DNA of 64,000 bases from Archangium sp. (GTDB lineage: Bacteria > Myxococcota > Myxococcia > Myxococcales > Myxococcaceae): the NCBI GenBank assembly GCA_030695565.1, contig JAUYRZ010000079.1, positions 1-64,000 of the forward strand, given 5' to 3'. The notes beneath the pieces were generated by a model. That model did no database searches. It was not told the origin of the DNA and saw only the letters and a program-made list of their open reading frames with translations. This document shows positions 148-63,694 of this stretch, piece after piece (position 1 is the stretch's first letter; each line of letters starts with the position of its first letter). The translations under genes and the position numbers were made by a program.

Positions 148-179
148 CTCCCCTGCGGGGAGAGGGTCAGGGTGAAGGG
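148..179. repeat. GC-rich palindromic repeat (family copy 1)
   Basis: CTCCCC-TGC-GGGGAG forms a perfect 6-bp stem and is followed by agggtcagggtga. Read on the minus strand it is the caccctgaccctctcccc motif found at seven other places in the window. It lies between the convergent KTSC and sigma54-activator genes and could act as a weak bidirectional terminator. Confidence 0.6.
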
Positions 180-182
180 CCA

Positions 183-8156: not shown

Positions 8157-8858
8157 ATGCCCAAATCTGGTCGTGAATACAGGGAGTTGCTGTTGGCGGG
8201 GCGGTGGTTCCAGGGGCTGGCTCCCCTGTTTCAGCACCGGCTGCTGGAGGCTGGCGTGATGCGTCACGTGCCGGTGGAGGGGCGGTTGTTCTCGCGCGGT
8301 GACGCTCCGGATGGGCTCTACGCCGCGCTCGCCGGGAGCATTCGCATCGCGGGGCTGTCGGAGGCGGGGAAAGAAGCCGTGCTCGCGGTCGTTGAACCCC
8401 CGCAATGGTTCGGGGAGATCGCGGTGTTCGATCGCCTGGCACGCACGCACGATGCGATCGCCGCGGTCGAGTCGGTGGTGATGCACGTGCCGTCGGTTTC
8501 GCTCGACGCGATGTTGGCGGAGCAGCCGGCGTGGTGGCGCGATCTGGGGTTGTTGGTGACCGCCAAGCTTCGGCTCGCCTTCATGATGATGGAGGACATG
8601 GCGTTGTTGCCGCTGCTCCCTCGCGTGGCCCGGCGTCTGGTGTTGATGGCCGAGGGGTACGGCGAGTGGAGCGATCGTTCGGCGCGGGTGGTGAAAGTGA
8701 GCCAGGAGACGCTGGCGGCGATGGTGTCTTCGTCGAGGCAGTCGACCAACCAGGCGCTCAAGGAGCTCGAGGCGCGGGGGCTCATCAAAGTGGCGTACAG
8801 CGAGATCGAGATCGTCGAGCTGGGCGGGTTGCGTTCGGTCGCTGGCGGGGGGCAGTGA
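8157..8858 (+). CDS. Crp/Fnr-family transcriptional regulator
   Basis: 233 residues. The N-terminal cyclic-nucleotide-binding-like beta roll contains the region FSRGDAPDGLYAALAGSIRI and the helix-preceding WFGEIAVFD. The C-terminus is a winged helix-turn-helix (VSQETLAAMVSSSRQSTNQ) with the recognition helix at about 195-210. There is no Cys cluster at the N-terminus, so it is not an oxygen-sensing Fnr with an iron-sulfur centre. The start at 8157 leaves a usual N-terminus for the family. It could control itself or the divergent DUF962 gene; the ligand is unknown. Confidence 0.85.
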   Translation: MPKSGREYRELLLAGRWFQGLAPLFQHRLLEAGVMRHVPVEGRLFSRGDAPDGLYAALAGSIRIAGLSEAGKEAVLAVVEPPQWFGEIAVFDRLARTHDAIAAVESVVMHVPSVSLDAMLAEQPAWWRDLGLLVTAKLRLAFMMMEDMALLPLLPRVARRLVLMAEGYGEWSDRSARVVKVSQETLAAMVSSSRQSTNQALKELEARGLIKVAYSEIEIVELGGLRSVAGGGQ

Positions 8859-9039
8859 GGATGGAGAAGCAGCCATTCAGGTGAGCAGTAGGGGTGGGTT
8901 TGCATGGTGCTCGCCTCGAACAGGCCCTTCACGCGCGGCTTCGTGTTGCGCCATTGAACGAGCGTCGAGCTGAAGGCGAGTTCTCGTTTCCACCTGAGAG
9001 CAAGACAGCTGCCTCTCGCTGGCGTAGTTCACCGTCGCC

Positions 9040-10140
9040 GTGCACACCGACGACTTCGACTTCCAGCTGCCCCCTGAGCTGATCGCCCAGGCCCCCCTTG
9101 CCGAGCGTGACGCGAGCCGTTTGCTGCACGTGCGAAGGCCCAGTGGGCAGGTGCAACATCGGCAGTTCCGCCACCTGCCGTCGCTGCTGCGCGCAGGCGA
9201 CTTGTTGGTGTTCAACGACTCCCGGGTGATCCCCGCGCGGCTCATCGGCAAGAAGAAGGGCACCGGCGGGCGCGCGGAGCTGCTGCTCGTGCGGCCTTCC
9301 ACCGATGTCGACACCGAAGCGGCGCTCAAGGCCAACGCCGCCGGCTCGGTGTGGACGTGCCTGGGCCAGTCTTCGAAGGGCTTTCGCCCCGGCATGGAGC
9401 TGGAGTTCGACGCGGGCCTGACTGCCACCGTGCTCACGGCGCCGGGAGGAGGCGAGTACTCGGTGCAGTTCACTTCGCCGCTCGCCACGCTCGAGGAGGC
9501 CATCGAGCGGGCGGGGAAGTTGCCGTTGCCGCCGTACATCACGCGTGACGTCGAGCTGGCGGATGCGGAGCGGTATCAGACCGTGTTCGCCCGGAAGGTG
9601 GGGTCGGTCGCGGCTCCGACTGCCGGGCTGCACTTCAACGCGGCGACGTTTGCCGAGCTCGACGCGAAAGGCGTGCAGCGGTGCTTCGTGTCGCTCGAGG
9701 TGGGGCCGGGCACGTTCATGCCGGTGCGGGAGGGGCCGGTGGCGGAGCACAAGATGCACTCCGAGCGGGCTCATGTGAGTGCGGCGACCGCGGCGATGAT
9801 TGCTTCCGCGAAGGATGAGAACAGACGTGTGATCGCGGTGGGGACCACGGTCGTGAGGACTTTGGAGTCGTTCGCGCTGGCCCCTCACCCCGACCCTCTC
9901 CCCGCTTCGCAGGGAGAGGGAGTTTCGTTTTCGACGTCCATCTTCATCACCCCGGGTTTTCGGTTTCAGACCGTCGACGCGATGGTGACCAACTTCCACC
10001 TGCCCAAGTCGACCCTGGTGATGCTGGTCAGCGCGTTCCTCGGCAGGGAAGCCACGCTGGCCGCGTACGCCGAGGCCGTTCGTGAGAAGTACCGCTTCTT
10101 CAGCTACGGCGACGCCATGTTCATCGAGTCCGACTCATGA
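9040..10140 (+). CDS. queA: S-adenosylmethionine:tRNA ribosyltransferase-isomerase
   Basis: Transfers and isomerises the ribosyl group of SAM onto 7-aminomethyl-7-deazaguanine in tRNA, forming epoxyqueuosine. 366 residues from a GTG start; the N-terminus DFDFQLPPELIAQAP and the blocks VFNDSRVIPARL, APTAGLHF, LEVGPGTF and NFHLPKSTLVMLVSA are all diagnostic. The protein is longer than the usual 340-350 because residues 281-295 (HPDPLPASQGEG region) are encoded by a GC-rich palindromic repeat that sits in frame between VRTLES and IFITPG, where other QueA proteins have a short loop. The gene overlaps tgt by 4 nt (ATGA), the usual queA-tgt arrangement. Confidence 0.95.
   Translation: MHTDDFDFQLPPELIAQAPLAERDASRLLHVRRPSGQVQHRQFRHLPSLLRAGDLLVFNDSRVIPARLIGKKKGTGGRAELLLVRPSTDVDTEAALKANAAGSVWTCLGQSSKGFRPGMELEFDAGLTATVLTAPGGGEYSVQFTSPLATLEEAIERAGKLPLPPYITRDVELADAERYQTVFARKVGSVAAPTAGLHFNAATFAELDAKGVQRCFVSLEVGPGTFMPVREGPVAEHKMHSERAHVSAATAAMIASAKDENRRVIAVGTTVVRTLESFALAPHPDPLPASQGEGVSFSTSIFITPGFRFQTVDAMVTNFHLPKSTLVMLVSAFLGREATLAAYAEAVREKYRFFSYGDAMFIESDS
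9881..9920. repeat. GC-rich palindromic repeat inside queA (family copy 2)
   Basis: The unit is caccccgaccctctcccc, then gcttcgca, then gggagaggg; CCCTCTCCC pairs with GGGAGAGGG around an 8-10 nt loop. It is read in frame as part of QueA, adding about 15 residues without a stop. Other copies lie mostly between genes. Confidence 0.75.
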
Positions 10141-11303
10141 CCCTTCCTGTTCCAGAGCTTCGTGGTGACCAACGCGTCGCCCCTTCGCTGGTGAAGTTCG
10201 AGCTGCTCCACGTCTGCGCGCAGACCGGCGCCCGCCGCGGCAAGCTGCACACCCCGCACGGCGTCATCGACACGCCCGTCTTCATGCCCGTGGGGACCGC
10301 CGGCAGCGTGAAGGCCATTGCGCCCGACGACCTCCACACGCTCGGCGCGAAGATCATCCTCGGCAACACCTACCACCTGATGCTCCGCCCCGGAGAGCAG
10401 CTGATCGGCGACCTCGGCGGCCTGCACAAGTTCATCTCGTGGGATCGCGCGATGCTCACCGACTCGGGCGGCTTTCAGGTCTACAGCCTCTCCGAGAAGG
10501 TGAAGATCACCGAAGAAGGCGCTGCCTTCCAAAGCCACCTCGACGGCAGCAAACACATGCTCACGCCCGAGCGGAGCATCGAGATCCAGGAAGTGCTCGG
10601 CGCCGACATCATCATGGCCTTCGACGAGTGCCCGCCCGCCCTGTCGGAGCGCAGCTACATGGAAGCCTCCATGGCGCGCACTACCCGCTGGCTGCACCGC
10701 TGCGCCAGGGCGTGGAACCGGCAACGCTCCTCGCTCTTCGGCATCGTGCAGGGTGGGCTCGACGAAGGTTTGCGCAAGCGGCACGCCGAAGAGGTCTGCG
10801 CCATCGACCTGCCGGGCTACGCGCTGGGTGGTTTCGCGGTCGGGGAAGAGCCGGCGCAGATGCACGCGGGCGTGGCGTACTCCGCGCCGCTGCTGCCCAG
10901 AGACAAACCCCGCTACCTGATGGGCGTGGGCACGCCGCTCGACCTGGTCACCTGCGTGGGCTCAGGCATCGACATGTTCGATTGTGTGCTGCCCACCCGC
11001 AGCGCCCGCAACAGCCTGCTCTTCACCAGCGAAGGCAAGCTGGTGATCAAGAACGCCCGCTATGCCCGCGATGAACGGCCGCTCGACCCGAAGTGCAGCT
11101 GCTACACCTGCCGCAACTTCTCTCGCGCGTACCTGAGGCACCTCTTCGTGAGCCAGGAGCTGGTCGCGATGCGCCTCAACACGCTGCACAACCTGCACTT
11201 CTTCCTCTCCTTGATGGAGCAGGCCCGCGCAGCGATCGAGGTCGACCGCTACGGCGACTTCCTCAAGGAGTTCCACGCCCGCCCGGTCACGCCGGAGGCC
11301 TGA
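10137..11303 (+). CDS. tgt: tRNA-guanine transglycosylase
   Basis: Exchanges guanine-34 of GUN-anticodon tRNAs for preQ1, the step before QueA. 388 residues. Visible active-site features are D109 in LTDSGGFQVYS (general acid), the nucleophile aspartate in MFDCVLPTR, and the zinc site C320-x-C322-x2-C325 with H351. The N-terminus carries about 20 extra residues before FELLHVCAQTGARRG. The ATG overlaps the queA stop. Together with yajC-secD-secF downstream this is the conserved bacterial gene order, here broken by one opposite-strand gene. Confidence 0.96.
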   Translation: MTLPVPELRGDQRVAPSLVKFELLHVCAQTGARRGKLHTPHGVIDTPVFMPVGTAGSVKAIAPDDLHTLGAKIILGNTYHLMLRPGEQLIGDLGGLHKFISWDRAMLTDSGGFQVYSLSEKVKITEEGAAFQSHLDGSKHMLTPERSIEIQEVLGADIIMAFDECPPALSERSYMEASMARTTRWLHRCARAWNRQRSSLFGIVQGGLDEGLRKRHAEEVCAIDLPGYALGGFAVGEEPAQMHAGVAYSAPLLPRDKPRYLMGVGTPLDLVTCVGSGIDMFDCVLPTRSARNSLLFTSEGKLVIKNARYARDERPLDPKCSCYTCRNFSRAYLRHLFVSQELVAMRLNTLHNLHFFLSLMEQARAAIEVDRYGDFLKEFHARPVTPEA

Positions 11304-11307
11304 CGCC

Positions 11308-11643
11308 TTACGGAACCGGCCGGCAGGCGCTCTTCGTGCCCGTCTGGTGGGTGAGCACGCACTCGAAGTTGATCCGGCAATCGGCGGCCACCTCGCAGGG
11401 GTTGCTGCAGAGCAGCTGGTCCGTGCCGAAGTTGGTGCAGATGGTGCCGGTGGGGCAATCGCGGGTCTGGCCGGGCTCGGTGCAACCGCGGGAGCAGAAT
11501 CCACCCGGGGCTTTGAGGCAGTCCTGGCCGGGCTCACACTGGTCGCGGCGCTCGCAGGCAATGCCCACCGCGGTGGTATTGCACGCCGAGAGGGCGAGGG
11601 TCGCGACGCCAACAAGGAGCAGAAGTCGAGCAAGTCGATTCAT
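11308..11643 (-). CDS. Small Cys-rich lipoprotein
   Basis: 111 residues with lipobox LSAC (Cys21) and twelve further cysteines spaced like C-x5-C-x5-C, forming a compact disulfide-rich module. The pattern resembles single modules of the large lipoproteins at 22515-29569. It stands on the opposite strand between tgt and yajC, with only 4 nt to the tgt stop, so it interrupts a normally continuous cluster. Function unknown. It is divergent from yajC, and the short gap must hold both promoters unless yajC is read from tgt. Confidence 0.7.
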   Translation of the reverse strand: MNRLARLLLLVGVATLALSACNTTAVGIACERRDQCEPGQDCLKAPGGFCSRGCTEPGQTRDCPTGTICTNFGTDQLLCSNPCEVAADCRINFECVLTHQTGTKSACRPVP

Positions 11644-15049: not shown

Positions 15050-16345
15050 TCAACGGCCGCCGGAGCCTTCGTGCTCCGGCGGCTTTTTCATGGCCACGGG
15101 CCCCTCACCCCGACCCTCTTTGCCCAGGGGCGCGGGGGGCACCAGGTGCAGCGTTCGGGTGGGGAAGGCGATGGAGGTGCCTGCCGCCTCGACGGTCGCC
15201 ATGAAGCCCAGCAGCACCTCCTGGCGGATGCGCTTGAAGACGTCGAAGTCGGAGGTGATGAACCAGGCCGAGACTTCGATGTCGAGGGACGACTCTCCCA
15301 GCTTGGCGAAGTGAACGGTGACGCTGTCGGGCCAGAGCTCGGGGTGCGCCTTGAGGGCCTGGTGAAAGCCTTCGATCACCTCCTTGATTTGCGCGGCCGT
15401 CGTTCCGTACTCGAGACCGACCACCGTGAGCAGTCTCACGCGATCGCGAGCGGCGAAGGTCTCCAGCCGCATGTCGGACAGCTTGCCGTTGGGGATGCTG
15501 ATCAACGTGCGATCGAGCGTGCGGATGCGGGTGCTGCGAAGGCCGATGGTCTCCACCGTGCCCACGAAGTCGTCGATGCGCACGAAGTCGCCTTCGCGGA
15601 TGGGTTGATCGACCGCGAGCGCGAAGGCGCCGAACACGTTCTCGAGCGTCTTCTGCGCGCCGAGGGCGAGCGCGAGGCCTCCGATGCCGAGGCCAGCGAG
15701 CACGCTGGTGACCGAGTAGCCGACCTCGGCCAGCGCCGCGAGGATGGCGAAGCCCACCAGCGCGAAGCGCACCACGCGGGAGAACAAGCTCACCAGCGCG
15801 CGGCTGCCGGGGCGAGCCTGGGCGAAGGCGCTCGAGCCGAAGTTGTCGCTCCAGGCGCTGACCGCCCGCAGCGCGCCCCAGAAGAAGGCGACGACGAGGC
15901 CCACCCGGAAGACGTGTTGCCACGCGGCGTCGGTCTCCTTGGCGAAGCCCAGCAAGGGAAGGGAGAACCGGGCGAGCAGAGAGGCCCACCACAACTTGAG
16001 CGGACCGCCGAGCCGTTCACTGATGCGCTCCGCCGCCGCCTGGTCTTTTCGAACGCGGCGCACCACCGCCTCGGTCAGCTTGAGCAGCAGCCACGTCAGC
16101 AACACGATCGAGGCCGCGAGCACCGGCACCGCGAGCCACTGCCAACGCTGCAGGCCGAACGTCGACGGCGACCGCCACGAGGCGGGGAGCAGCTCGCGCA
16201 AACCGTCGCCCGCCTCGCCCACGGCCGCCTGCGCCTTGGTGACCGCGACGGGATCTTTCACGTCGAACATTCGGCTGACACCGCCGTCTTCATCGGCCTG
16301 CGCGGTCAGGGAACCCGCGATCACCAGCACCCAGAGGAACCTCAT
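15050..16345 (-). CDS. MscS-family mechanosensitive channel
   Basis: 431 residues. A signal-like N-terminus and several helices precede the pore helix GLGIGGLALALGAQKTLEN, equivalent to TM3 of MscS with its Gly/Ala packing pattern. The MscS beta domain (IREGDFVRIDDFVGTVETI) and the alpha/beta C-terminal domain follow. These channels open under membrane tension to release solutes. I chose the ATG at 16345, which starts a signal sequence; longer frames run into non-coding DNA. The C-terminal 28 residues (PAPLGKEGRGEGPV then PPEHEGSGGR) look unrelated to the family: they are encoded by one palindromic repeat and by the reverse strand of the secF terminator. Confidence 0.88.
   Translation of the reverse strand: MRFLWVLVIAGSLTAQADEDGGVSRMFDVKDPVAVTKAQAAVGEAGDGLRELLPASWRSPSTFGLQRWQWLAVPVLAASIVLLTWLLLKLTEAVVRRVRKDQAAAERISERLGGPLKLWWASLLARFSLPLLGFAKETDAAWQHVFRVGLVVAFFWGALRAVSAWSDNFGSSAFAQARPGSRALVSLFSRVVRFALVGFAILAALAEVGYSVTSVLAGLGIGGLALALGAQKTLENVFGAFALAVDQPIREGDFVRIDDFVGTVETIGLRSTRIRTLDRTLISIPNGKLSDMRLETFAARDRVRLLTVVGLEYGTTAAQIKEVIEGFHQALKAHPELWPDSVTVHFAKLGESSLDIEVSAWFITSDFDVFKRIRQEVLLGFMATVEAAGTSIAFPTRTLHLVPPAPLGKEGRGEGPVAMKKPPEHEGSGGR
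15056..15088 (+). terminator. Intrinsic terminator of the yajC-secDF operon
   Basis: A perfect 11-bp stem (GCCGCCGGAGC / GCTCCGGCGGC, 15056-15066 and 15073-15083) with a 6-nt loop cttcgt is followed by TTTTT at 15084-15088. It lies inside the 3' end of the opposite-strand mscS-like gene, whose last residues it encodes. Confidence 0.9.
15101..15131. repeat. GC-rich repeat in the 3' end of the mscS-like gene (family copy 3)
   Basis: cccctcaccccgaccctct, then ttgcccaggggcg: the left arm matches the other copies and the right arm is degenerate. It is read through in frame by the minus-strand MscS-like gene as LGKEGRGEG. Confidence 0.6.
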
Positions 16346-22514: not shown

Positions 22515-25500
22515 ATGGCAACCCCGAAGTGGCTGGGCCTGGCTGCGCTCTGTGCGCTCTCAGCCTGTTTCAACCCGACACGTGAACCTGATTGCCTGCT
22601 GGCTGGCACCTGCGAGTGCAAGCTCAAGGCAGACTGCCGCCCCGGTTTCGAGTGCGTGGACGGAAAGTGTTTCGAGGTGGTCGACGCCGGCTTGCCCGGT
22701 GAGCTCGGCTGGCCCTGCACCCAGAACAGCGAATGCCTCTTCGGGCCCTGTCTTCCCACCGGCCCCGGCAATGGCCGGGTGTGCAGCGCGGTCTGCGCGG
22801 TCGACGGCGGGGTGGGCTGTGAGAAGGGCTGGGAGTGCAAGCAGGCGCCGGTCGGTCAGCAGGGGTTTCTCTGTGCGCCTCCGATTCGGGTGCAGTGCCT
22901 CGCGTGTGACGCAGACTCCGACTGCAACACCATCGGCGATCGCTGCACGCGCATCGGCGACGGCACCTTCTGCACCACTGACTGTTCCCTGACGGGCCAG
23001 TGCCCTCAGGGCAGCGTGTGCCGTTCGGTGAGCTCGGATGCGGGCTCGTTGCGCCAGTGCATTCCCCAGAGCAACACCTGCGAGTGCAGCGCCGTGTCTG
23101 CCGGCCTGACGCGCGCGTGCAAGCGCACCAACCCGCGCGCGACCTGCTTCGGCGTGGAGACCTGCCAGCCCAACGGCGCCTGGAACGGCTGTGACGCGCT
23201 CGAGGCGTCGGCCGAGATCTGCGACGGCATCGACAACGACTGCGACGGGCTGACCGATCAACCCGATCCCGATCTGATCACCACCGGGCTTCCCGGGTAC
23301 CCGAGCTGCAGCAAGGGCCTGACCTGCAGAGGCCTGTGGAGCTGCCAGGGCCAGGGCGATGGAGGTTTCGCGTTCTCCTGCTCCGCGCCGGATCCGAAAG
23401 CCGAGCTGTGCAACGGCGCCGATGACGACTGCAACGGCCAGGTCGACGACGGGTTGATCGACGGCATGGGCGTGTACTTCAGCCCCCGCGCGTGCGGCAC
23501 CTGCGCGACCGATTGCTTCAAGGTCCTCGAGAACCTCGCTGAAGACGGTGGCGTGGTGATCGACGGCGCGGCCACCTGTGACGTGCGCGGCGGTCAGCGC
23601 GAGTGCGTGCCCCGCATCTGCGCGAAGGGCTCGTACCTCACGCCGCCTGGAGCGCCGCAGGTCTGTGAACGCGCGGTCAGCTCGCAGTGCCGGCCGTGCA
23701 CCACCTCGGGTGATTGCCGCGTGCCGGGTGACGAATGCGTGAACGTCGGCACCGACCCCGACACCTTCTGCGCGCAGAGCTGCGACGTCACCTCGGTGAT
23801 GGAAGGCTGCACCGGCCGGGTGGGCGAGCAGGGCTGCTGCCCCACCGGCAACACCTGCCAGAGCGTCAACGCGAAGAAGTTGTGCGTGCCGAACGGGAAC
23901 AGCTGCCAGTGCAACACCGATCAGGTGGGCTTCACGCGCTCGTGCTTCGTGACCGCGGGCGCGGCGACCTGCATCGGCAACCAGACCTGCAACGCGCAGG
24001 GCACCTACGGCACGTGCGACACCTCGATGACCTCGCTGGAGTTCTGCGACGGCCGCGACAACGACTGCGACACCACCATCGACGAAGGCTTCATCGACAC
24101 GCGCGGCTCGGGCACCTACGACACCGACGCGCACTGCGGCGCCTGCAACAACAACTGCGGCGCGCGTTGGAGCCCCACCATTCAGCACGCCATCGGCGGG
24201 TGCAGCATCACCGCGCCTCCGCCGAAGTGTGTGATCGCCAGCTGCACCACCGAACGCGTGGGCGGCGGCGCGATCTGCCGCACCGACTCCGAATGCACCG
24301 GGGGCGCGGTCTGTCACCCGACGTACCGGCAATGCACGCGGGCCTGCACCACCACCGCGAATTGCCGCGGCGGTGAGCAGTGCACCAACAACTTCTGCAC
24401 GCGCGGCTGCTCTGTGGCCAGCGACTGCACGGCGTCGTTCGGCCCCGACGCGATCTGCAGCAACGGGAGCTGCGGCATCACCTATCAATTCGTCAACGCT
24501 GACCTCGACGAGACCAACGGCTGCGAGTGCGCCTCGAACCCCTCGGTCACCGATGAGCCCGAGCGTTTCGCCACCTACCCGGCCGCGGGCCTGCCGTACG
24601 TCGATCGCAACTGCGATCAGGTCGACGGCGTCGCGGCGCGCTCACTCTTCGTGTGGGCGCAGTCACCCAGCAGCCTCGGTACGCGGGCCGCTCCTTTCCG
24701 CACCATCGCCGAAGCGATCACCGCGTTCCGCCCGGCGATGCACACCTCCATCCTGGTGGCCCAGGGCACCTATGCCGAGCAGGTGGTGCTCACCAACGGC
24801 GTGCAACTGCACGGCGGGTACTCCGCTGACTTCACGCGGCGCGACATCATCCTCTTCCCCACGTTCATCGAAGCGAGCGAACCCACCGGCGCTCAGCCGC
24901 GCGGCACCGTGAACGCAGAAGGGCTCTCGCAGTTGACCGTGCTCTCCGGCTTCACCATTCGCGGCTACGACGTGAACACCCGGCCCACGCCCGGCGTGCC
25001 TGCGAAGAACAGCTACGCGGTCTACGTGCGCGACTCAGCAGGCCTGGTGATTCAGAACAACCACGTGGTCGGTGGGCGCGGTGGTGATGGTTCACCTGCG
25101 CAACCCGGCCAGGCCGGCACGAACGGCGCTGCGGGTCAGAACGGCGTGCCCGCCCGCGAGTGCAACTCACCCGACTGCACCGGTGAGACCCAGACCGGAG
25201 GCGCTGCGGGCGTCAACGCTTCGTGCGCCGCACAGGGGCAACCCGGCGCGGGCACCGACTTGAACCTCGATCCGCAGGCGTACAACGGCGGCGGCTTGAA
25301 CGGCACGGGCGGCTCGAACTCGAGGTACCAGCACTCCGATCCGTCGCAGACGTCGTTCTGCAAGTACGACTGCACCATTCTCGGTGGAGGTTCGGCCGGC
25401 GGCGCTGCGCAGAACGGAACCGACGGCACAGCGCAGGGCATGGGCCAGGGCTGCGCGGTCTCGCGTGGCTCGATCTCAGGCGGCGACTGGGTCACCAGCG

Positions 25501-26111
25501 TGGCGAGCATGGGCGCCAACGGCGCACCGGGACGAGGGGGCGGCGGCGGTGGTGGCGGCGGCTGCGTCAGCAACGGCAACCCCAACACCTGCACCATCGG
25601 GCGCCGCGTGGGCGATCTCGGCGGCACCGGTGGTGGTGGAGGCGCCGGTGGTTGTGGCGGCAGCGCGGGCCTCGCGGCAGCAGGCGGCGGCGCGTCATTC
25701 GGCATCTTCGTGATCGGCACCGCACCGTCGATCGACGGCAACCTGGTCGACTTCGGGTTCGGCGGCTTCGGCGGCAACGGTGGTGCAGGCGGCTACGGCG
25801 GTCTGGGCGGCCAGGGCGGCCGCGGCGGTCCCAACACGTCGGTCGCGTGGTGCGCGGGGCAGGGCGGCCCGGGTGGGCGCGGCGGCAACGGCGGCGCCGG
25901 CAGTGGTGGCGGCGGCGGTTGCGGCGGCAGCGTCTTCGGCATCGCAGGTCAGAGCATCACGGCGCAGGGCTATCCCGCCCGCAACACGTTCCCTCCTCCT
26001 CCGGTGCTCAGCGTGGGCTCGGGCGGCGTGGGCGGTGCGTCTCCGGCAGGCCCCGCTTTCAAAGGCGGCGATGGCGTGCCCGGCATTCTCTTCAGCGTGG
26101 AGAGCTTCTGA
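22515..26111 (+). CDS. Giant Cys-rich lipoprotein with DNDCDG motifs, beta-helix and Gly-rich tail (paralogue A)
   Basis: 1198 residues from the ATG at 22515, lipobox LSAC (Cys18). Residues about 25-690 are a chain of Cys-rich modules. Among them are three copies of the putative metal-binding motif shared with MopE-type proteins: CDGIDNDCDG (from 236), [10 protein letters not shown] (from 299) and CDGRDNDCD (from 511). Residues about 709-792 match a DUF1565/pectate-lyase-like beta-helix (RAAPFRTIAEAI, VAQGTYAEQVVL, LHGGYSADFTRRD). The last 340 residues are Gly/Asn/Ala-rich repeats resembling PGRS sequences, with scattered Cys pairs. It is probably on the outer surface. Its stop overlaps the start of paralogue B by 1 nt (TGATG), so they are co-translated. 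Ligand unknown; calcium or other metal binding is inferred from the motif. Confidence 0.8.
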   Translation: MATPKWLGLAALCALSACFNPTREPDCLLAGTCECKLKADCRPGFECVDGKCFEVVDAGLPGELGWPCTQNSECLFGPCLPTGPGNGRVCSAVCAVDGGVGCEKGWECKQAPVGQQGFLCAPPIRVQCLACDADSDCNTIGDRCTRIGDGTFCTTDCSLTGQCPQGSVCRSVSSDAGSLRQCIPQSNTCECSAVSAGLTRACKRTNPRATCFGVETCQPNGAWNGCDALEASAEICDGIDNDCDGLTDQPDPDLITTGLPGYPSCSKGLTCRGLWSCQGQGDGGFAFSCSAPDPKAELCNGADDDCNGQVDDGLIDGMGVYFSPRACGTCATDCFKVLENLAEDGGVVIDGAATCDVRGGQRECVPRICAKGSYLTPPGAPQVCERAVSSQCRPCTTSGDCRVPGDECVNVGTDPDTFCAQSCDVTSVMEGCTGRVGEQGCCPTGNTCQSVNAKKLCVPNGNSCQCNTDQVGFTRSCFVTAGAATCIGNQTCNAQGTYGTCDTSMTSLEFCDGRDNDCDTTIDEGFIDTRGSGTYDTDAHCGACNNNCGARWSPTIQHAIGGCSITAPPPKCVIASCTTERVGGGAICRTDSECTGGAVCHPTYRQCTRACTTTANCRGGEQCTNNFCTRGCSVASDCTASFGPDAICSNGSCGITYQFVNADLDETNGCECASNPSVTDEPERFATYPAAGLPYVDRNCDQVDGVAARSLFVWAQSPSSLGTRAAPFRTIAEAITAFRPAMHTSILVAQGTYAEQVVLTNGVQLHGGYSADFTRRDIILFPTFIEASEPTGAQPRGTVNAEGLSQLTVLSGFTIRGYDVNTRPTPGVPAKNSYAVYVRDSAGLVIQNNHVVGGRGGDGSPAQPGQAGTNGAAGQNGVPARECNSPDCTGETQTGGAAGVNASCAAQGQPGAGTDLNLDPQAYNGGGLNGTGGSNSRYQHSDPSQTSFCKYDCTILGGGSAGGAAQNGTDGTAQGMGQGCAVSRGSISGGDWVTSVASMGANGAPGRGGGGGGGGGCVSNGNPNTCTIGRRVGDLGGTGGGGGAGGCGGSAGLAAAGGGASFGIFVIGTAPSIDGNLVDFGFGGFGGNGGAGGYGGLGGQGGRGGPNTSVAWCAGQGGPGGRGGNGGAGSGGGGGCGGSVFGIAGQSITAQGYPARNTFPPPPVLSVGSGGVGGASPAGPAFKGGDGVPGILFSVESF

Positions 26112-29100
26112 TGAGCGCCCGACAAGTCGTCTTCACGTTGCTGGCGCTCGCTGCCCTGCTCTCTGCGTGCGGCCGCACCTTGTTCTACCCGCGCTCCGAG
26201 AAGTGCGTGTTCGACGCCGACTGCGAAGCCGGCCTGCGCTGCGTGAACCAGGAGTGCACCACCTTCGAGATTCCCGACGGTGGGTTGCGCAAGAAGCGGT
26301 TCGGTCAGCCGTGCGATGCGGGCGTGGAGTGCAACTCGAACTTCTGCGTACCGGGCCCTGCCGGCGCGTTCTGCACCGAGCCGTGTGGTGCGGGTGACGC
26401 AGGCGTGTGCCCCGATTCGTATGACTGCAAACGCACCGAAGTGCGGAGCGCTCCGGATGCGGGCGCCGTGCTGGCCAATCTCTGCGCGGTGCCACAGCCT
26501 CTGCTTTGCCAGGCCTGCACCGGAGATCTCGATTGCGGCGCGACGGGCGCCGACAAGTGCGTGACCACCGATGGTGGAACGTTCTGCGGCCGCGACTGCA
26601 CCTTCGACGGCTGCCCTTCGCTCTATGCCTGTCAGGCGTTCCCCGACGGCTCGAAGCAATGTGTGCCCGAAGGCCGCACCTGCGATTGTGTGCCCGAGAC
26701 GGTGGGCCTGCAGAAGTCGTGTCGGGGTCAGTCGAACGAGTTCGGCCGCTGCCTGGGCAATCAGATCTGCCAGCTCGATGGTGGCTTCACGCCCTGCATC
26801 GCGCCGCTCGCCCTGCAGGAGACCTGCAACGGCGCTGACGATGACTGCAACGGCTCCATCGACGACTTCACTGCGCCCGAGTGCACCCGCACCGTGGGCA
26901 TGGTGACCTGCCGCGGGCCGCAGGTGTGTTTCGCGTCTGCAGGCCTGGTGTGCACCGCGCGCACGCCTGCCAACGAAGCGTGCAACTACGAAGACGACGA
27001 CTGCGACGGGCAGATCGACGAAGACTTCCGCCTGACGCGCGGCCTCTATTCGACGCCCGCGCATTGCGGCGCCTGCAACAACGACTGCTCGAAGATCATC
27101 GCGCACGCGGTGACCACCAGCTGCGACCTGTCGAACGACTCGCCCACCTGCCGCGTCACGGCCTGTGCGCCCGGGTTCTTCCCCTTCGAAGACAACACCA
27201 TGTGTCTGCAGCTGCCGGACACCTTGTGTTCGCCCTGTCAGCTCGACTCCGACTGCGTGGGGCCAGGCAGCCGCTGCCTCACCGTCGATGGCGCGAAGGT
27301 GTGCGGGCGCGATTGTGGCCCCGGCAGCGCGTACCCTCCGGGGTGCCCGGGTGGCTACACCTGCACGGCCAGCCCCGGTGGCGGCTCTCAGTGCGTGCCT
27401 TCGACGGGCACCTGCAGCTGCACCACCTCGACGATCAACTCGACGCGCGTCTGCTCGATCGTCAACGGCGGCAGCACCTGCTCTGGCTTCTCGACCTGCG
27501 CTGCGGGGGCGGGCGGAGCACGTTGGAGCACCTGCGACGTGAGCACCTTCAACCCGGAGATCTGCGACGCGCGCGACAACAACTGCGACCTGCGCGTGGA
27601 CGAAGGGTTCTTGAACCAGGCCACCGGCCGCTACGAAGCCGCGCAGCACTGCGGCTTCTGCAACAACGACTGCACCAAGACGTTCTCGCCCACCATCCAG
27701 CACACCACCGGCGTGTGCGACCTCGCGCCCATGATGCCTCGGTGCACGATGGGGCCGTGTCTGACTGAGACCGTCGGCGGCACCACCTTCGAGTGGGTCA
27801 ACGTGAACGCGCTGCCCGCCGATGGGTGCGAGTGCCGCCGGGTGCAGGGCAACCTCACCATCGACTTGCCCGACCGCGCTCCGGCCACGGGTGCAGGCGC
27901 GTCGTGGGTCGACGAGAACTGCGACGGCATCGATGGTGTGCTGGGCGACGCGATCTTCGTCTCGGCGAGCGCGAGCCCGGGCGGCAACGGCACCAGGACC
28001 TCGCCGCTGCAGACCATCACCGCGGGCGTGGCGGCGCAGCAGGCTCAGAACCGCCGCTACGTGCTGGTGGCCCAGGGCCTGTACCGGGAGAACGTGCGCT
28101 TGTTCGACGGCGCGCAGGTGTTCGGCGGCTACAGCCAGGACTTCTTGAAGCGCGATCCCCGGCTGTACATCACGACGTGGGTGGGCGTGGCGCCGACCGC
28201 GACGGCGATCGCTCCGGTGCACGGTGAGTCGTTGGGTGCGGCGGGCGCGGTTCGCGAGACGGTGGTGGCGGGCTTCGTCATCAACGGCTGGGACGCGACG
28301 GTGATGGCCGCGGCGAGCGCGAATGGCGAGGCGTCGATCGGCGTATTCCTGCGCGACGTGGGGCCTCGGTTCGTCTTGCAGAGCAACGACGTGATCGCCG
28401 GTCGCGGTGGTGCAGGTGGCCGCGGCGCCACGGGCACGCAGGGCTTCGGGCGGCAGGCCGGCACCACGCTCAACGGCCAGCGCGGCACCAACAGCAACTT
28501 CTTCGCGAACGGCATGTGCGCGGCGGTGAACCACCGGAACGGCGGTGTGGCGGGCACCAACGGGACCTGCACGGGCGCCAACGGAACGCCGGGCGGCAAC
28601 GTGGTGTGTCCCGTGTACACGTTCGCAGGCAACCAGGGCGCGCAGCAGATGTACCAGTCTCCGATGCCCACGAGCCGCGATGGCGCGGGTGGTTTCGATT
28701 GGAGCTTCGACAACCTCTCTTCACCGGGTTGCAACCACGTCACCGAGTCGGGTTTCCCCACCAGCATCCAGCAGCACGATGGCGCTGACGGGAAGCAGGG
28801 GGGTGATGGTTCGGGTGGTGTTGGTGGGCCAGGGGCTGCGACGCGGGCTCGTTTCGGCAGCATCGGCAGTGGCCGCTGGGTGGCTGCGACGATCGCGGCG
28901 GCCGCGGGTCAGGCGGGGCTCACTGCACAAGGTGGCGGTGGTGGTGGTGCAGGTGGTGGCGTGGCGCGCTTCACGCCGGGCGGTTGCCAGGGCTGGGAGA
29001 TCGGCGCGACCGGCGGCGGTGCAGGCGCCGGTGGGTGTGGTGGCACCGGCGGCAGCGCGGGTGGTGCAGGCGGCGCGTCGTTGGCGATCCTGATCACCTC

Positions 29101-29569
29101 GACGACGGCGAGCACGGTGTTGCCGAGCATCTTGAACAACCGCATTCAGCGCGGGGCGGGTGGCACCGGTGGTGATGGTGGTTTCGGCGGCGCGGGCGGG
29201 CTCGGCGGCGCGGGTGGTTTTGGCGGTACCGCGGCGCGCTGGAGCAGCTCGGTCGGCGGCAAGGGCGGAGAAGGCGGCAACGGCGGGCCGGGTGGTGGTG
29301 GTGGTGGTGGCTCGGGTGGGCCGTCGTTCGGGGTGATGACCTTCAACGTGGGGCTGGGCGGGTTCTCGCCGACCAATACGTTCCTCACGCCGACGTTCGT
29401 GGATACCGCGGGGTCGGGTGGGGCGGGTGGCAGCTCTCCGGGTTCGTCGACGAGCACGGGCACGCCGGGGGCGCGAGGTGCATCGGCGAACAGCACCGCG
29501 CTGGAGAGTTGTTCGTCACCGTGCGTGGGTGGCACGTGCGACAGCAACAACGTCTGCATTCCCAACTGA
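26111..29569 (+). CDS. Giant Cys-rich lipoprotein (paralogue B)
   Basis: 1152 residues, lipobox LSAC (Cys20). Same plan as the upstream gene: Cys modules with [10 protein letters not shown] (239), [10 protein letters not shown] (291) and CDARDNNCD (485), then a beta-helix (about 611-694; [41 protein letters not shown]). A Gly-rich tail follows (about 761-1131), and then an extra C-terminal Cys module ([13 protein letters not shown]) that paralogue A lacks. Divergence is large outside the motifs, so the duplication is old. I start at the ATG at 26111, which overlaps the upstream stop and opens a lipoprotein signal; the frame remains open further upstream, but only as a shadow of paralogue A. 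Confidence 0.8.
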
Positions 29570-35179: not shown

Positions 35180-36658
35180 ATGAGACCGTTGGCAGTGGTG
35201 CTGCTGCTGAGTACGACGACCTGGGCGGTGCCGGTGGTGCTCGAGGGCGACCTGCCCGACGGCGGCCCGGACTTCGTGATGATTCCTTTCGAGGTGCCGG
35301 CGGGTACCGAGGAGATCTCCGTCACGCACCCGAAGCTGCAGCCAGAGAACATCCTCGACTACGGCGTGTTCGACCCGAACGGGTATCGCGGGTGGGGCGG
35401 CGGCAATGATGAGCCCGCGGTGATTGGCAGGCTGGCAGCCTCACGCAGCTACCTCACGGGGCCGATGCCGGCGGGGACCTGGAGTGTGCTCATCGGCAAA
35501 GCGAAGATCGTGGTGGCCCCGGCGCGGTACCGGTTGGAGATCGACGTGCGGCCGGTGGCGACGCTCGCTCCTCAGTTGGTGCGCGCGCCGTATGTGCCGA
35601 GCCGGCTCAGTGAAGAAGCGCGCTGGTACGCGGGCGATCTGCACGTGCACTCGCGGGAGAGTGGTGACGCACAGCCGACGATGGATGCAGTCGCCACGTT
35701 CGCGCGCAGCCGCGGGCTCGATTTCGTGGAGTACTCCGAGCACAACACCGTCTCGCAGCTCGAGTTCTTCAACGACGTGCAGTCACGGCATCCACAGCTG
35801 TTGTTGCTGCCGGGTGTGGAGTTCACCACCTACGCAGGTCACGCCAACGGCATCGGTTCGACGCGGTATGTGGATCATCGACTGGGCTTCGGATCGGTCA
35901 CGCTGGAGACCGCGCTCGCTGAGTTCGCGTCGCAGGACGTGGTGCTGTCGATCAATCACCCGCTGCTCGATCTCGGCATGAGCTGCATCGGGTGTGCGTG
36001 GAAACACAAGATTCCCCGCGAGCAACTCGGCGCGGTGGAGATCGGCACCGGCGGCTTCGACAAGACCGGCCTCCTCTTCGGCAAGCAGACCATCGCGTGG
36101 TGGGAGCGGTTGTCAGTGCAGGGGCTGCACCTCGCGCCGATTGGTGGCAGCGATGATCACTCGGGCGGTACGGGCACCGGCATGTTCGACAGCTCGATCG
36201 GCAGCCCCACCACGATGGTGTTCGCGAACGGGCTCGACGCGGCGTCGATCGTCGAGGGCATTCGGAAGGGGCACACGGTGGTGAAGCTGCAGGGGCCGAT
36301 GGATCCGATGGTGGATCTGCGGATTGGGGACGCGATGGTGGGCGATACGGTGGTCGCGCATTCGCCGGCGATGAAGGTGACGGTCACCGGCGGGGTGGGC
36401 TCGAAGTTGGTGGTGTTCAAGGACGGCGTTGAGCTCAGGTCGGTGGGGGTGACTGAGGATCCGTTCGAGCTGGTGGACCAGGTTTCTGGTGGGCGGTTCA
36501 GGGCGGAGGCGCAGATCGCTGGGCAGCCTCGTACGGTAACCGCGAATCTTTGGGTGGAGTCTCCGACTGCGCCGCCTCCGATCGGGTGCGGGTGCAGTGG
36601 TGGCGGTGAGTTGGTGCTGCTCGGGGTGGTGGGTGTGCTGCGGAGGAGAAGAAGGTAA
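35180..36658 (+). CDS. PHP-domain metallohydrolase with MYXO-CTERM-type sorting signal
   Basis: 492 residues with a signal peptide (1-16). A beta-rich N-terminal domain (about 20-140) is followed by the PHP domain: D153-L-H-V-H157, EYSEHNTVS, LLLPGVEFTT, INHPLLD and IGGSDDHSG supply the metal ligands typical of CehA/McbA-type phosphoesterases. The C-terminus PPPIGCGCSGGGELVLLG plus a short helix and RRRRR is of the MYXO-CTERM type, in which a Cys motif, helix and Arg cluster mark proteins for surface sorting in Myxococcota. I chose the ATG at 35180 to begin the signal peptide. Substrate unknown. Confidence 0.85.
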   Translation: MRPLAVVLLLSTTTWAVPVVLEGDLPDGGPDFVMIPFEVPAGTEEISVTHPKLQPENILDYGVFDPNGYRGWGGGNDEPAVIGRLAASRSYLTGPMPAGTWSVLIGKAKIVVAPARYRLEIDVRPVATLAPQLVRAPYVPSRLSEEARWYAGDLHVHSRESGDAQPTMDAVATFARSRGLDFVEYSEHNTVSQLEFFNDVQSRHPQLLLLPGVEFTTYAGHANGIGSTRYVDHRLGFGSVTLETALAEFASQDVVLSINHPLLDLGMSCIGCAWKHKIPREQLGAVEIGTGGFDKTGLLFGKQTIAWWERLSVQGLHLAPIGGSDDHSGGTGTGMFDSSIGSPTTMVFANGLDAASIVEGIRKGHTVVKLQGPMDPMVDLRIGDAMVGDTVVAHSPAMKVTVTGGVGSKLVVFKDGVELRSVGVTEDPFELVDQVSGGRFRAEAQIAGQPRTVTANLWVESPTAPPPIGCGCSGGGELVLLGVVGVLRRRRR

Positions 36659-36671
36659 GCCCTCTCCCCGA

Positions 36672-36695
36672 CCCTCTCCCCCGCGGGGGAGAGGG
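36672..36695. repeat. 24-bp perfect palindrome between convergent genes (family copy 6)
   Basis: CCCTCTCCCCCG followed by its exact reverse complement CGGGGGAGAGGG. The sequence before it, cctctccccg, is a partial second arm. It lies 14 nt after the PHP stop and 37 nt before the stop of the alpha-2-macroglobulin gene, where it could terminate both transcripts. Confidence 0.7.
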
Positions 36696-36732
36696 AGGCA
36701 CTTTTCGTTTGTCGTCTTGCGTTTGTCGCTCG

Positions 36733-56722: not shown

Positions 56723-56765
56723 CTCCCTCGCCCTGCGGAGCGGGGAGAGGGTCGGGGAGAGGGGC
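56723..56765. repeat. GC-rich palindromic repeat (family copy 7)
   Basis: ctccctcgccctgcggagcg followed by gggagagggtcggggagagg. The arms CTCCCTCGCCC / GGGAGAGGG are imperfect and the orientation matches copy 1. It lies between the secreted-protein start and the HlyD-like stop. Confidence 0.6.
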
Positions 56766-56803
56766 CATCTGTGCACCCGAAGGCCCCCTGTCTGTGCGCC
56801 GTA

Positions 56804-63647: not shown

Positions 63648-63694
63648 CTCCCTCACCCTGACCCTCTCCCGAAAGGCCCGAAAGGAGAGGGAAA
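63648..63694. repeat. GC-rich palindromic repeat (family copy 8)
   Basis: ctccctcaccctgaccctct then cccgaaaggcccgaaagg and agagggaaagag. CCCTCTCCC pairs with the degenerate GGAGAGGG arm around a longer, duplicated loop (ccgaaagg twice). It lies between the cytochrome and rpoD genes, convergent. Confidence 0.65.

Follow-up and report, generated by a model that had tools for sequence, protein, structure and literature searches.

Introduction

The original papers on RPEs, the palindromic elements of Rickettsia, are reportedly those of Ogata et al. In a review (PMC10969869), RPEs are described as rickettsial and about 150 bp long; there, and in PMC3733652, which cites the Rickettsia RPEs, they are reported in frame within conserved protein genes as well as between genes, with no apparent functional loss. 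PMC3733652 also describes REPs tagged by GTAG/CGTC, hairpins of 20-40 bp located mostly between unidirectional and convergent genes. It reports REPs within genes in several species; DNA repair genes account for many of these and tRNA-modification genes for some, and the tagged in-gene copies are mostly dimers or groups.

The insertion of palindromes into genes is already known from other bacteria, and the queA case presented here is ordinary for the kind. It was found in a stretch of 64,000 nt (the window) of an 8.5 Mb myxobacterial genome (G000) assembled in 134 contigs.

The repeat unit and its host gene

The ORF carrying the repeat was identified as QueA by a match to the Pfam domain Queuosine_synth (E 3.8e-126) that extends over the whole protein (residues 4-362, profile positions 2-322 of 322). 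The ORF behind it, which from its sequence we take to be tgt, begins within the stop codon of queA, so that events in queA could affect it. A single queA-tgt-sec operon, as proposed in the first-pass annotation, is doubtful because a predicted minus-strand ORF (11308-11643, 111 aa) separates tgt from the plus-strand genes that follow. This ORF has a lipoprotein-like start (LSAC, by eye) and was not picked by the codon-usage gene model.

The repeat unit has a length of 44 nt (window 9879-9922, plus strand) and the structure GGCC-CCTCACCCCGACCCTCTCCCCGCTTCGCAGGGAGAGGG-AG, with the core at 9883-9920 (+). These bounds follow from 112 aligned copies, in which conservation drops to the left of GGCC and to the right of AG, the ends of the consensus being GGCC... 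and ...GGGAG. The palindrome initially placed at 9881-9920 is indeed present, but the unit is slightly longer than that, and QueA residues 281-294 are encoded wholly within it. No stop codon interrupts the reading frame within the insert, and the conserved blocks VVRTLES and IFITPG stand on either side, in agreement with the earlier reading of a 366-residue protein without frameshift. As 44 is not divisible by 3, the insertion into queA must have come with one or more further base changes.

In the whole genome, 104 matches to a strict pattern were found against none for the reversed control, and 231 matches to a 20-nt half pattern, again with none for its control. The repeat family is therefore not a product of chance, and the presence of a palindromic repeat in frame inside queA was confirmed. 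When up to three mismatches were allowed, 99 copies of the 44-nt unit could be counted, 18 of them identical (the queA copy included) and 81 near-identical. In the window alone, a search with up to three mismatches gave six matches, where 0.49 were expected. That the same palindrome also occurs between genes proved correct, since five other copies or remnants are located in the window (Table 1), three of them clear of predicted genes, one just behind a stop codon and the fifth in the C-terminal tail of a further ORF. The last is a partial copy that stands in frame in its ORF, read as ...APLGKEGRGEGP..., and is the second coding copy of the window. Long glycine-rich direct repeats are also present in ORFs at 25494-29319 of the window, with 12 copies of a 65-nt family.

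Table 1. Position of queA, tgt, parts of the repeat unit and further repeat copies in the window
Feature	Position	Strand	Remark
Diverged copy	157..182	-	outside predicted genes
queA	9040..10140	+	366 aa, GTG start; ORF list, Pfam
Conserved 5' half, four C-tracts	9881..9903	+	pattern match; kept in 98/99 near copies
Hairpin 5' arm	9894..9902	+	
Hairpin 3' arm	9912..9920	+	more variable arm among copies
tgt	10137..11303	+	start overlaps queA stop codon
Partial copy	15101..15125	+	antisense in C-terminal tail of ORF 15050-16345 (-)
Copy directly behind stop codon	about 36660..36697	+	stop codon of ORF 35195-36658
Intergenic copy	56723..56766	-	3 mismatches
Intergenic copy, longer-loop variant	63650..63691	+	

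The QueA loop in orthologs and in the predicted structure

A QueA match was present in 56 of 60 genomes, and one sequence per genome, including the one studied here, was aligned. The insert occupies a loop directly behind an almost invariant helix, in which R273, L275 and E276 are invariant. As anticipated, this loop between conserved blocks varies in length: it measures 9-18 residues in 54 of the 56 orthologs (9, 11, 12 and 13 in four congeners), against 23 in the window. The remaining ortholog, from another family of the order (G041, L369), has a loop of 35 residues with an insert that differs from the 44-nt element. The extra segment was expected to be absent or variable in relatives, and none of the 55 other orthologs has it, apart from a probable remnant in one congener (G004). 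There the loop DNA at the same site, on a contig that ends within queA, reads CCCCTCACCCCGAGAGG, which corresponds to the two ends of the element but lacks the hairpin. This loop probably goes back to a shared insertion that was later trimmed in frame, while an origin independent of the insertion in the window is possible. The 56 orthologs gave no sign of the insert being conserved in both position and sequence among distant myxobacteria. In a scan of a genome collection, the element seed was detected in none of 69 QueA loops parsed from 80 loci among the matches listed, which were mostly non-myxobacterial; 11 of the 80 loops could not be parsed, and two of the 69 (6 and 8 residues) were probably clipped by the pattern.

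An AlphaFold model of QueA (36 sequences) had a mean pLDDT of 92.8, and its best matches were the three solved QueA structures 1yy3, 1vky and 1wdi (Z 26.8-29.4, rmsd 7.1-8.7 over 274-290 residues). The only stretch with a pLDDT below 50, residues 284-291, lies between a helix (269-280) and a strand (295-299), which supports the short loop expected at the site of the insert.

Genomic placement and other genes with the unit

A codon-usage gene model was applied to place 113 distinct full copies, from stretches that represent part of the genome, relative to genes. The predicted coding share of the sequence is about 86-89%, yet 91 of the 113 copies are located outside predicted genes; 12 lie inside genes, five at gene edges, and five overlap gene ends. 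Of the copies that are not inside genes, 86 have a gene on either side, and 37 of these lie between convergent genes; in contig C79, 8 of the 91 gaps are of this type. Over its whole length this contig carries nine copies, one inside a gene (queA) and one overlapping a gene end.

The 12 in-gene copies are distributed over eight genes: queA, tsaB, an acyltransferase-like ORF, a TonB-dependent receptor gene and an IMS-family polymerase gene with one each, recG and the gene of an adenosine-deaminase/Nudix protein with two each, and a ketoacyl-synthase/FabA-type synthase gene with three. The copy in the acyltransferase-like ORF (L027, residue 32 of 326, in the N-terminal part) may count as in-gene through a wrong start. 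Of the eight genes, ortholog comparison covered queA, recG, tsaB and the Nudix gene; in all four the unit is an in-frame insertion in a conserved gene with relatives that do without it, as described for RPEs. The copies in tsaB, recG and the Nudix gene are situated in variable linkers, where eroded copies in orthologs were read by eye. Among ten TsaB orthologs, the unit or a variant of it occupies one common site, in frame, in G000 and two congeners (G003 and G004); in G022, from another genus, a related sequence runs in the opposite direction, and G002, G005, G007, G009, G012, G013 and G018 have no element. In the linker behind the N-terminal part of RecG (six orthologs), G000 has two copies, G004 an eroded one and G012 one in the opposite orientation. 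For the Nudix gene (three genomes compared), the G000 copy lies between two strands, G003 has an eroded copy, and G005 and G007 have no copy.

A second palindrome family (CGACTCCGCTCGG...CCGAGCGGAGTCGAGGG) was observed in frame in recG of G004 (L239) and in the Nudix gene of G003 (L251), where it splits the eroded copy of the first family. Its seed occurs six times in 48 G003 loci and was absent from the G000 loci and the window.

All seven sense copies inside genes of G000 share one reading frame, PHP[DN]PLP...GEG. The same frame was found in one of two sense copies in G003 (71 copies examined, seven inside genes) and in the single one of G004 (28 examined, one inside). Pooled over the three genomes this amounts to 9 of 10, with p 3.6e-4 under equal likelihood of the frames, a value to be read with the reservation that copies shared by descent are not independent. 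A rule of insert length was also considered, a length of 2 modulo 3 being found in 10 of 12 in-gene copies and 53 of 101 others, and was rejected as too weak (one-sided p 0.038).

Conservation within the unit

The 5' half fits the i-motif consensus on the given strand and the quadruplex consensus on the complementary strand, and its four C-tracts are kept almost throughout the 99 near copies, with three mismatches in total at the 15 C-tract positions. An initial alignment of 16 copies gave no covarying pairs; because its pattern had fixed both arms and one row was mis-cut, the set of 99 copies with up to three mismatches was used instead. Here the 5' arm of the hairpin has two mismatches and the 3' arm 39, and of 41 broken stem pairs none is compensated. 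Base pairing as such is therefore not what is conserved among the copies; the 5' half is conserved instead. Recurrent 3' variants point to subfamilies. A recognition site for a mobilising enzyme and a quadruplex would explain the conservation of the 5' half equally well.

As RNA, the 44-nt unit folds to -20.8 kcal/mol. Compared with 200 dinucleotide shuffles, of which 18 reached as good a fold, the 75-nt surroundings do not stand out (z -1.22), and an unusual RNA fold was rejected as an explanation. An Rfam search of window positions 8800-11400 with E up to 1 returned two matches, both below gathering.

Distribution among relatives and mobilisation

The half pattern has a patchy distribution and was found in 12 of the 60 genomes, the one studied here included. 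Within the genus, G002, G003, G004 and G005 have 89, 116, 103 and 14 matches besides the 231 of G000; in other genera of the family, 113, 75 and 85 were counted in G012, G013 and G032. G008 has 20, and three further genomes have 1-2 each. In an even draw of 146 genomes from the phylum, 11, again including G000, contained the half pattern.

The RAYT-type Y1 tyrosine transposase (PF01797) gave neither a match nor a candidate in the 134 contigs of G000, so that this genome shows no sign of the usual mobilising enzyme. The domain is present in 18 of 40 genomes searched, and G003:C48:229-552 (L065) is the only one found in the genus. As to target duplication, none of the queA, tsaB and Nudix orthologs compared offered a clean empty site, the closest of them differing around the insertion; nor, with regard to a MITE, was a partner transposon identified.

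Origin and meaning of the insert

Very probably, a small non-autonomous selfish palindrome of the REP/RPE-like kind was inserted in queA and has been tolerated in a variable, dispensable loop. It would have arrived by transposition, in an event that kept the frame and fell between the conserved helix and strand, in a loop already variable in length and sequence. The enzyme presumably tolerates the about 14 extra residues (APHPDPLPASQGEG) as a predicted disordered surface loop, and persistence of such an insert would need neither a function nor a benefit to QueA.

An action of the inserted hairpin, or of a template-strand quadruplex, on the queA-tgt transcript through pausing, mRNA stability or the coupling of queA and tgt is distinctly unlikely. 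The folding energy of the unit, the start of tgt in the queA stop codon and the quadruplex consensus in 98 of the 99 copies would be in line with such an action, but the local fold is ordinary for its composition, the broken stem pairs are uncompensated, Rfam gave no match at gathering level and the other QueA orthologs do without the insert. No evidence was found for the effect on translation or mRNA stability suggested in the first-pass annotation. That the protein has taken over the insert as a functional peptide loop appears highly unlikely. The shared frame of the sense copies in three genomes looks as if one peptide were preferred, and tsaB bears the element at one site in three congeners. 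Against this, antisense copies in other frames are equally tolerated (they make up 5 of 12 in-gene copies in G000 and 5 of 7 in G003), and the seven sense copies at gene edges fall into all three frames (2, 1 and 4) without preference; the queA insert itself is limited to the genome of the window and the probable shortened remnant, in a loop predicted to be disordered.

An assembly or sequencing artefact that placed a copy in queA could be suspected from the abundance of the repeat and the number of contigs, and is extremely improbable given the open frame between conserved blocks, the remnant at the same site in G004 and the element in TsaB of two other genomes at the site used in G000.

Beyond insertion and tolerance of a selfish palindrome, it may be proposed, tentatively and as something that is rather unlikely to hold, that this is a RAYT-less myxobacterial family of which the selected part is the 5' half with four C-tracts (a possible quadruplex or i-motif) and not the palindrome, and which repeatedly enters the same flexible loops (TsaB, RecG, Nudix) across lineages, mostly in one sense frame, and then decays in frame. 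If true, such a RAYT-less half-element family would keep supplying new protein loops in bacteria other than Rickettsia. The features that merit further study are the repeated occurrence in the same loops and the one-sidedness of the conservation. Since several congeners differ at the same sites, with the copy present, absent or trimmed, the fate of protein inserts could be followed directly.

Comparison with known systems

With REPs in the broad sense, imperfect palindromes of 20-40 bp in high copy number, the present unit shares its size, a stem of 9 bp, its copy number and its placement mostly between genes and downstream of them. Like the REPs and REPINs mobilised by RAYT/TnpA-REP, it is a single, short hairpin whose 5' flank is conserved, in around 100-230 copies per genome; it differs from them in that G000 has no PF01797 match. 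A GTAG or CGTC tag, which marks one unit end in the two REP super-families named after these tags, is absent by eye, and the 5' flank CCCCTCACCCC stands in its place. Copies in recG, the IMS-domain polymerase gene, queA and tsaB resemble the repair and tRNA-modification hosts named in PMC3733652, whereas single units prevail here and dimers or groups there. No paper with the peptide PHPNPLP, or with the core ACCCTCTCCCC together with a palindrome, was found in the open-licence papers searched.

The likeness to RPEs is that the unit is palindromic as well and lies both in frame in conserved genes and between genes; compared by description only, RPEs are rickettsial elements of about 150 bp, whereas this one is GC-rich, myxobacterial and 44 nt long. 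The present case departs from the known kind in that its ends are untagged, its host belongs to another group and no RAYT gene was found in G000, and it extends protein-coding palindromes, known from Rickettsia and from tagged REPs, to a myxobacterial family in housekeeping and repair genes.
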